From Inquilinus sp. Marseille-Q2685 (GTDB taxonomy: Bacteria; Pseudomonadota; Alphaproteobacteria; DSM-16000; Inquilinaceae): a stretch of 64,000 nt of DNA. The translations under genes and the position numbers were made by a program. Below are positions 6,312 through 60,077 of this stretch, piece after piece (position 1 is the stretch's first letter; every line of letters starts with the position of its first letter). The notes beneath the pieces are model-generated. The model worked only from the letters and a program-made list of their open reading frames with translations. It was not told the DNA's origin and ran no database searches. The stretch covers positions 1,428,001 to 1,492,000 of the forward strand of contig NZ_CAKAKL010000002.1 of assembly GCF_916619195.1 (NCBI RefSeq), in the 5' to 3' direction.

Positions 6312-6333
6312 TCGGCAGGACGTTCCCAAATTC

Positions 6334-57810: not shown

Positions 57811-57890
57811 GGGACGGCCGCGGCGCAAGCCGAAACGCAGCGAGCCAGCCCGGTACCCGCGGTGCTTGACCGACTCCTCGATCCCTTCCC

Positions 57891-57973
57891 GTCATGGCGA
57901 GGCGCGTAGCGCCGTGGCCATCCCAGGGGTCGGTGCCGCTGGATGGCCACGCCCCTTCGGGGCTCGCCATGAC
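57891..57973. repeat. Intergenic palindromic repeat, family A copy 3
   Basis: GTCATGGCGAG (57891-57901) and CTCGCCATGAC (57963-57973) are perfect complements, with internal GTGGCCATCC and GGATGGCCAC also pairing. It matches the copies at 6334 and 32350. It lies in the divergent gap between the LacI gene and the MFS leader. Confidence 0.85.
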
Positions 57974-58052
57974 GAATCAATGCAATGGAGATTGAACAGA
58001 TACTTGCGCAGAAATTCGATCTGATAATATGTTCATTGCGCAGGAGATAAAA

Positions 58053-58103
58053 ATGCTTCCACCAAATTTCACGATCGTAGGCGAAAGGTGCATGGCCCGA
58101 TAG
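58053..58103 (+). CDS. Putative 16-residue leader peptide upstream of MFS gene
   Basis: ATG at 58053 follows AGGAG (58042-58046) with a 6-base AT-rich spacer, a strong ribosome-binding site. The peptide is MLPPNFTIVGERCMAR, with a Pro-Pro pair at positions 3-4. The stop is 25 bases before a strong terminator. An AT-rich GATAAT (58023-58028) upstream could be a -10 box. The layout is that of a leader peptide whose translation controls termination. It matches no leader peptide I know. Confidence 0.55.
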   Translation: MLPPNFTIVGERCMAR

Positions 58104-58157
58104 CGGACGCCATGTCCGCCGCCATGCGCCCCCGAACCGCCGTTCGGGGGCTTTTTT
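58087..58157 (+). terminator. Intrinsic terminator with alternative upstream pairing (candidate attenuator)
   Basis: GCCCCCGAAC (58128-58137), loop CGCC, GTTCGGGGGC (58142-58151) and TTTTTT (58152-58157) form a 10-bp rightward intrinsic terminator. No gene on the + strand ends before it, so it must end a leader or small RNA. Upstream, GGTGCATGGC (58087-58096, in the leader ORF) can pair with GCCATGCGCC (58121-58130) with one G-U pair, enclosing a 6-bp hairpin GCGGAC/GTCCGC. That stem shares three bases with the terminator's left arm, so the structures compete only partly. Confidence 0.8.
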
Positions 58158-58179
58158 GTTTCAGAGGGTTCGGACACCG

Positions 58180-59376
58180 ATGCGCAAGGCCACCACCCCG
58201 CCCGCCCTGTCGACGCTGATCCTGATGACCGCCACCTCGGTGGTCACGCTGAACATGATCGTACCGTCGCTGGCCAACATCGCGCGGGATCTGGAGGCCG
58301 ACTACGCCCTGGTCGGCCTTGCGCTCGGCGGGTATCTCGCCGTCTCGGCCGCGGTCCAGCTCGGGCTGGGCCCGCTCGCCGACCGGATCGGCCGGCGCCC
58401 GGTGCTGCTGGCGGCGCTCGCGGTCTTCACCCTCGCCTCGCTCGGCTGCGCGGTCGCCCAGACCGTGTGGATGCTGCTGGCGTTCCGGATGCTGCAGGCG
58501 GCGGTGGTTTCGGGCTATGTCCTCTCCCTCGCGATCGTCCGCGATACGGCCGGGGAGGCCGAGGCCGCGCGGCTGCTGGGCCGCATCGGCATGGCGATGG
58601 CCCTGGCCCCGATGCTGGGGCCGATGCTGGGCAGCGTCCTGGACGCCGCCTTCGGGTGGCGCATGGCCTTCCTGCTCCTTGCCGTGGCCGGGGCGGGGCT
58701 CTGGTGCCTGGCGTGGTCGGACCTGGGCGAGACCCTCCGGCCCTCGGCCGGGACGGGGGACGACGGCGGGCGCCTGGCCGCGCTGCTGCGCGAGCCGCTG
58801 TTCTGGTGCCATGCGCTGTGCACCGCCTTCTCGACCGGCGCCTTCTACATCTTCCTGGCCGGGGCGCCCCGGATCGCCACTACCGTCTTCGGGATCGGCA
58901 CGGCGCAGCTGGGCGTGTACGTCGGCAGCATCACCGCGGGCTTCGTCGCCGGCAGCTGGCTGTCGAGCCGCCTGGTCGGCCGGCATCCGCCGGCGACGGT
59001 CATGCTGATGGGCCGGATGCTCGCCTGCCTGGGCCTCCTCGCCGGCCTCGCGGTCATCGCCATGGGCCATCTGACGCCGGCCCTCTACTTCGGATGCACC
59101 GTCTTCGTCGGGCTGGGCAACGGCATGACGACGCCGAACAGCAACGCCGGGGCGATGTCGGTGCGCCCCCGGCTGGCGGGAAGCGCCGCGGGCATCACCG
59201 GCGCCCTGACCGTCCTGGGCGGCGCGCTGACGACGACGCTGACCGGCCTCGCCCTGTCCGGCGAGCCGTCGCCGACGCTCCTGATCTTGCTGATGCTGCT
59301 GGCCTCCTTCCTCGGCCTGCTGGCCGCCGCAGCGGTCCGGCTGAACCGGGCCGCATCCCGCGTAACATCGACATAG
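58180..59376 (+). CDS. MFS drug-efflux transporter (Bcr/CflA-like, DHA1 family)
   Basis: A 398-residue inner-membrane antiporter with 12 predicted helices. Motif A between helices 2 and 3 is GLGPLADRIGRRPVLLAALA; SLAIVRDTAGEAEAARLLGR and MALAPMLGPMLGSVLDAAFG are typical of the Bcr/CflA group. The ATG at 58180 has AGAGGG upstream at a rather long distance. It lies 22 bases beyond a strong terminator, so expression should depend on readthrough. The drug specificity is unknown. Confidence 0.9.
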   Translation: MRKATTPPALSTLILMTATSVVTLNMIVPSLANIARDLEADYALVGLALGGYLAVSAAVQLGLGPLADRIGRRPVLLAALAVFTLASLGCAVAQTVWMLLAFRMLQAAVVSGYVLSLAIVRDTAGEAEAARLLGRIGMAMALAPMLGPMLGSVLDAAFGWRMAFLLLAVAGAGLWCLAWSDLGETLRPSAGTGDDGGRLAALLREPLFWCHALCTAFSTGAFYIFLAGAPRIATTVFGIGTAQLGVYVGSITAGFVAGSWLSSRLVGRHPPATVMLMGRMLACLGLLAGLAVIAMGHLTPALYFGCTVFVGLGNGMTTPNSNAGAMSVRPRLAGSAAGITGALTVLGGALTTTLTGLALSGEPSPTLLILLMLLASFLGLLAAAAVRLNRAASRVTST

Positions 59377-59387
59377 CCGAGGGTGCA

Positions 59388-59416
59388 CAAAGAAATCTTT
59401 GCAAAGATATCTTTGC
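59388..59416. promoter_or_regulatory. Overlapping palindromes upstream of the ArsR-type gene
   Basis: GCAAAGATATCTTTGC (59401-59416) is a perfect 16-bp palindrome, and CAAAGAAATCTTTG (59388-59401) is a near copy overlapping it by one base. The two CAAAGA starts are 14 bases apart. They sit 17 bases before the ArsR-type start and 12 bases after the MFS stop. They are the likely autorepression site of the regulator at 59433. Confidence 0.7.
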
Positions 59417-59432
59417 AAATTAAGCTTGGTGA

Positions 59433-60077
59433 ATGAACCCGCCTCGCCCTCCATCGATTCCCGCCGCGACCGCGCCCCGCGACGTCAGCCGGGTCGTCCC
59501 CTATCCGACGGCCCTCAAGGCGCTGGCGCATCCGGTCCGGTTGCGGATGCTGGGCATGCTCAGGGTCGACGGCCCCGCCACCGCGACGCAGCTGGCGGCG
59601 CGGCTGGGCCTCAACAGCGGCGCGACGAGCTATCACCTCCGCCAGTTGGCCCAGTACGGCTTCATCGAGGAGAAGCCGGGGCCATCCCGGCGCGACCGCT
59701 GGTGGCGCGCCAGCCACGAGCTGACCTCCGTGCTCGAGACGGATGCCGAGGGTGCGGAGCTGGATGCGGGCGTCGCCTTCACCCAGGCGGCGCTGTCCCT
59801 GCAGGTCGGCCAGATGCAGCGGGCCGTCGAGGAATATCCCGAGCTGCCGGCCCCATGGCGCAAGGCCAGCACGGCCAGCGACGTCACCATCCCGCTGACG
59901 GCGGAGCAGGCCGAAGCCCTGACCAGGCGGCTGACCGACATCATGCTGGAGGCGATGCGGGACGCCCCGCCCCTCGGGGAACCGCTGCCCCCGGACATGG
60001 CGCCCTTCACGGTCATGCTACGCGCTTTTCCCTATCCGGGCCGGCTGCCGCACCGCGAGGAGGATGCCGGGCCGTGA
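59433..60077 (+). CDS. ArsR-type winged-helix transcriptional regulator
   Basis: A 214-residue protein with a winged helix-turn-helix near the N-terminus (ALAHPVRLRMLGMLRVDGPA, then ATQLAARLGLNSGATSYHLR, residues 30-70, wing GFIEEKPGPSRRDRWWRAS). The long C-terminal part lacks obvious metal-binding Cys pairs, so it is a non-metal ArsR/HTH_20 type, as is common beside MFS exporters. It overlaps the next gene by 4 bases (GTGA) and probably represses that operon through the CAAAGATATCTTTG site. Confidence 0.88.
   Translation: MNPPRPPSIPAATAPRDVSRVVPYPTALKALAHPVRLRMLGMLRVDGPATATQLAARLGLNSGATSYHLRQLAQYGFIEEKPGPSRRDRWWRASHELTSVLETDAEGAELDAGVAFTQAALSLQVGQMQRAVEEYPELPAPWRKASTASDVTIPLTAEQAEALTRRLTDIMLEAMRDAPPLGEPLPPDMAPFTVMLRAFPYPGRLPHREEDAGP

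Follow-up and report, generated by a model that had tools for sequence, protein, structure and literature searches.

The leader locus and the downstream transporter gene

The window, a stretch of 64,000 nucleotides from Inquilinus sp. Marseille-Q2685, contains a short open reading frame (ORF) followed by an intrinsic terminator and, beyond it, a gene for an MFS transporter of the Bcr/CflA type, which is proposed to be the regulated gene. The elements of this region are the following.

58003-58030, + strand: putative promoter, recognized by eye (-35-like CTTGCG at 58003-58008, -10-like TAATAT at 58025-58030)
58042-58047, + strand: Shine-Dalgarno sequence AGGAGA of the leader ORF, similar in relatives
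58053-58103, + strand: leader ORF, product MLPPNFTIVGERCMAR, from ORF reading and homologous leaders in relatives
58074-58079, + strand: codons ATC GTA (Ile8 Val9), the presumed remaining regulatory codons; most relatives have longer Val/Ile/Leu runs
58087-58096, + strand: segment 1, GGTGCATGGC, within the last leader codons, partner of segment 3
58121-58130, + strand: segment 3, GCCATGCGCC, whose 3 final bases form the foot of the terminator stem
58128-58157, + strand: intrinsic terminator (stem 58128-58151, T tract TTTTTT 58152-58157)
58180-59376, + strand: MFS transporter gene, Bcr/CflA type, assigned by family and structure-sequence matches

The terminator stem is formed by 10 pairs, 8 of them G-C, around a loop of 4, and represents the sole + strand terminator-like site within 57.5-59.6 kb. 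Segment 1 is complementary to segment 3 with one G-U pair, and the overlap between segment 3 and the terminator stem comprises 58128-58130. As a whole, the 158-nt leader folds better than its shuffled versions (z -2.7). An earlier note on this DNA had described the leader ORF, the terminator and the 10-bp alternative pairing, and all three lie where it placed them.

Upstream of the leader, the promoter-like pair at 58003-58030, which may serve as the promoter, recurs in the same position in five further genomes of the genus; a sigma-70 consensus scan called none at 58003-58030. Directly upstream of this putative promoter, at 57890-57974, there is a REP-like palindromic element with two facing copies (GGATGGCCACG...CTCGCCATGACG), two further copies of which are located at 6333 and 32349, none being expected by chance.

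The MFS protein comprises 398 residues. Its best NCBIfam match is the Bcr/CflA family of efflux transporters (TIGR00710), with a score of 191.8 bits that lies under the curated cut-off of 200.9, and its best solved-structure sequence matches are EmrD (2gfp) and MdfA (4zow). Some of its relatives carry NCBIfam names of nucleoside or siderophore importers, PunC and FslD. Among the gene neighbours of the MFS orthologues there is no widely recurrent partner, each being found in at most 3 leader-bearing loci, so that the context provides no functional hint. In one sister genome (G003, L018:164-1492), the MFS frame diverges from its relatives around two thirds of the way in, as a result of either a frameshift or an assembly error. 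Beyond the MFS gene, a perfect palindrome, TTTGCAAAGATATCTTTGCAAA, is located at 59398-59419, shortly before the gene of an ArsR-type regulator (59433-60077), which is followed by another MFS-like ORF; this palindrome is possibly the operator of the ArsR-type regulator.

Distribution, kinship and mobility of the leader

When the leader region was used as the query of a DNA search, the leader was found in 5/5 further genomes of the genus, as well as in three that belong to different genera of the family, preceding the same MFS gene each time. In the six genus members, the window included, the ORF length, the start, the pairing segments and the terminator are all intact. A short DNA match in another family (genome G037) revealed a similar leader, MHRLVVIVGKWRMGR, with a terminator, located before ilvB, the gene for the acetolactate synthase large subunit. 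As this counterpart precedes ilvB, the element would represent a branched-chain amino acid attenuator; as the gene downstream in the window is an MFS transporter and not one of branched-chain synthesis, it would be a variant rather than a plain member of the ilvB-type attenuators.

Two covariance models were run over the class, a first one and then a second one built from 46 leaders. With the second model, 17 of 385 genomes had a hit at E<=0.001: 12 before this MFS gene, 4 before ilvB and one that is a chance terminator. Hence, all 16 credible copies in this sample are on ilvB (4) or on this MFS gene (12). The leader is carried by 46/80 MFS orthologues from named genomes (36 with ATG starts were picked up by a script and 10 were read by hand, either having GTG or TTG starts or having been missed by the script), including records of Microvirga, Devosia, Sulfitobacter, Roseobacter, Leisingera, Roseibium, Pelagibius and Kiloniellaceae. 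Exactly two copies, one each on ilvB and MFS, occur in five genomes (Sulfitobacter algicola, Roseobacter sp. CCS2, an uncultured Roseobacter, Leisingera sp. SS27 and a Rhodobacteraceae MAG), while only the MFS copy was found in the tested Inquilinus, Microvirga, Devosia and Roseibium genomes. None of the ilvB genes of the window's own family carried the same leader when searched for it. The earlier note had proposed looking for the ORF and the terminator in relatives: the end of the ORF, the segments that pair and the terminator all recur in >40 of them from many families, and this conservation places the arrangement far beyond chance.

The relationship with ilvB leaders was assessed with R3, a covariance model built from nine ilvB leaders of other genomes and zero MFS leaders. 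Its single hit is the window leader, whether the search covers the 64-kb window (E 3.6e-10) or the whole 7.3-Mb genome to which it belongs (E 4.1e-8), these E-values being rough since they come from a shortened calibration. Applied to 30 MFS loci, R3 found 21/21 leader-bearing and 0/9 leaderless ones. By these sequence comparisons, the window leader is homologous to the ilvB leaders of Roseobacter-type genomes. There is no Rfam family for the ilvB/MFS leader; the Rfam search of the window gave 0 matches at the gathering score and that of three leader loci 0 matches at E<=1, and otherwise weak sub-threshold matches were obtained, none of them credible.

Other leader-like elements were observed along the way. 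Two proteobacterial MAGs, one labelled Gammaproteobacteria (L084 and L100, entered as leaderless in the tree), have different Val-rich leaders, SILCVIAVVVVSVVVRVRLSP and YIETFVVVTVVESLMLSP, with a terminator before the same MFS gene. Likewise, the ilvB gene of genome G020 (L056) is preceded by another branched-chain leader-like uORF, MTTQLVLIRQPLSGRD, that lies outside the ilvB/MFS leader family. Records named Mycobacterium sp. KBS0706 (L078) and Anaerolineae bacterium (L069) carry this alphaproteobacterial locus, and their names are probably wrong.

In the tree, the window MFS groups with that of Inquilinus limosus, in a clade that also takes in Microvirga lupini (81%) and Devosia (80%), both from orders other than that of Inquilinus. 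This clade across orders suggests that leader and gene have been transferred together. Conjugative plasmids also carry the leader-MFS unit, in Roseobacter denitrificans OCh 114 on pTB1 (RD1_RS19855, leader MTVKFVVVVSKRRMVR) and likewise in Phaeobacter piscinae and Leisingera caerulea; the model E-values of these copies range from 1e-22 to 6e-24. Close to the Leisingera caerulea plasmid copy (L174) are genes for a chloramphenicol phosphotransferase and two GNAT acetyltransferases.

Conservation, predicted switch and rival readings

Related leaders encode runs of Val/Ile/Leu, such as FVVVG or VVVVS. In 52 MFS leaders, corresponding to 50 distinct peptides, these residues make up 33% of the total, rising to 45% in the central part. 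Their longest run averages 3.28 residues, whereas a 24% background would give 1.65; this average was reached in 0/5000 within-peptide permutations, and such runs are near absent in the other two frames. Among the Val codons, GTA reaches 26% in the leaders but is rare in the MFS genes, at 5% (Fisher p 6e-18). The alignment advised earlier, aimed at both the peptide and the base pairs, reveals that both are kept, in different parts of the leader. At codons -11 to -8 from the stop, the Val/Ile class is kept while the third bases vary, and therefore the amino acid is selected. At codons -5 and -4 the amino acid changes (AGG/TGG/GGG; TGC/CGC/AGC/TAC), but GG and GC, which pair with the base of the terminator, are mostly retained, so that here the selection is on the RNA.

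The pairing between segments 1 and 3 occurs in 93.2% of cells across the 46 leaders, versus 29-66% when slid, with double changes in five cells; a further double change (GCACATGG with CCATGTGC) is present in an ilvB leader (L170). This pairing beats the shuffle control only modestly, because the 1:3 columns vary little. The terminator stem, paired in 99.4% of cells, is near invariant and for this reason shows no covariation.

From the homology to ilvB leaders and from runs of Val/Ile/Leu far above expectation, sensing of charged Val/Ile tRNA is indicated. It is thus highly probable, judging from sequence comparison, that the element acts by ribosome-dependent transcription attenuation, turning the MFS gene on when Val/Ile-tRNAs are uncharged. 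In this model, transcription would start just upstream of the leader ORF. With Val- and Ile-tRNAs charged, the ribosome would reach the stop codon and cover segment 1, leaving segment 3 free, so that the terminator would form and the MFS gene would be off. With these tRNAs uncharged, the ribosome would stall on the Ile/Val codons, and segment 1 would pair with segment 3, capturing the terminator base and allowing the MFS gene to be transcribed. We infer the stalling signal, the switching step and the continued working of the eroded window copy.

With the ribosome stalled on the Val/Ile codons and segment 1 free, a nascent RNA in which the 3' half of the terminator is still to appear is predicted to fold into the 1:3 helix, at around -13 to -21 kcal/mol in the tested cases and -21.3 kcal/mol for the window, L137 being an exception. 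The exclusion between this helix and the terminator involves 3 bp only, and the inner 6-7 bp of the helix coexist with the full terminator. The earlier remark that the competition is limited to three bases is correct, and this stays the weak point of the mechanism. Equilibrium folding with defined ribosome positions gave a terminator near 1.0 at nearly all of them, stalled ones included, with no clean on/off switch. Therefore, the switch would have to be kinetic or to depend on the three pairs closest to the T tract. It also counts against a Val/Ile attenuator that a Bcr/CflA-type transporter is no obvious member of a branched-chain amino acid regulon.

The window copy itself keeps only Ile-Val, where sister copies in the genus have VVV, AVV, TVV or VSV; with the run cut in this way, sensing in the window could be weak and its sensitivity is uncertain. 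This raises an improbable alternative, namely that the Inquilinus attenuator is a decaying copy whose terminator just lowers MFS expression with no real regulation, as the run has shrunk in the window and is interrupted in some of the sister species, and the terminator is strong in all folds. The intact ORF length, start, pairing segments and terminator of the six genus members argue against decay, and so does the retention of Val at codon -8, encoded in the window by the rare GTA.

As regards the trigger, the earlier proposal of translation-dependent attenuation before the MFS gene is well supported by the comparative evidence; its second element, a ribosome-stalling drug, is not, in view of the ilvB homology and the Val/Ile/Leu runs. 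An inhibitor that stalls the ribosome in the leader and so induces efflux would fit a gene of the drug/H+ antiporter family, as well as the chloramphenicol phosphotransferase and acetyltransferase genes near the Leisingera plasmid copy. Nevertheless, the conserved peptide feature is the Val/Ile/Leu run, and what persists in the conserved RCMVR end is its pairing bases rather than its amino acids, making direct drug sensing very unlikely. Equally slight is the chance that, once terminated, the leader RNA (or the peptide it encodes) has a further role in trans, one that is compatible with attenuation and has an alphaproteobacterial precedent (PMC7298713); the terminator should yield a discrete short RNA of ~120 nt, but cis control accounts for the location before the same MFS gene in dozens of loci. 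A free small RNA as the main reading was rejected, given that every credible copy precedes the MFS gene or ilvB in cis.

If attenuation by Val/Ile-tRNA charging operates, two physiologies may be considered, which we do not rank: the transporter may import branched-chain amino acids or their precursors during starvation, or it may export an inhibitor that causes the starvation. A more specific version of the latter, which we regard as doubtful, is that a mobile resistance-type pump exports a natural compound that blocks either branched-chain amino acid synthesis or the charging of Val/Ile-tRNA, the borrowed ilvB-type attenuator detecting this inhibitor through uncharged Val/Ile tRNA and not by binding it. 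An orphan transporter group annotated only as multidrug efflux would be tied to branched-chain amino acid starvation in a wide range of Alphaproteobacteria, and the substrate of the MFS protein would be narrowed, in a testable manner, to something linked with Val/Ile supply. One amino-acid attenuator would be common to a biosynthetic gene and a transporter, spreading with the latter, conjugative plasmids included.

Relation to known systems

Ile/Val attenuation of Caulobacter crescentus ilvBN (ilvIH) and an alphaproteobacterial ilvB leader peptide are already known (Tarleton 1994 and Vitreschak 2004, as cited in PMC4117421 and PMC1273637). As far as these citations describe it, the ilvBN attenuator resembles the present element in its layout, with Ile/Val codons in a short leader ORF and a Rho-independent terminator after it, uncharged tRNA leading to read-through. 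The target here is, in contrast, an MFS transporter and not acetolactate synthase, and the ilvB genes of the window's own family lack such a leader. While this type of attenuator is known, an MFS gene as the target of a Val/Ile attenuator was not found in the literature searched, although Vitreschak 2004 and Tarleton 1994 may mention one.

Outside this class, the uORF of Corynebacterium ilvBNC (PMC10272879, PMC11857589) also exerts uORF-dependent control, there of a branched-chain amino acid gene; it differs in belonging to another phylum and in having ilvB as its target. The closest conceptual neighbour is rnTrpL/peTrpL of the alphaproteobacterium Sinorhizobium meliloti, in which a Trp leader peptide is reported to influence an operon for multidrug efflux, so that an amino-acid attenuator leader is likewise linked to an efflux function (PMC7298713). 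In that system the link is established in trans and depends on antibiotics, whereas here a Val/Ile-type leader lies in cis, directly before the transporter gene.
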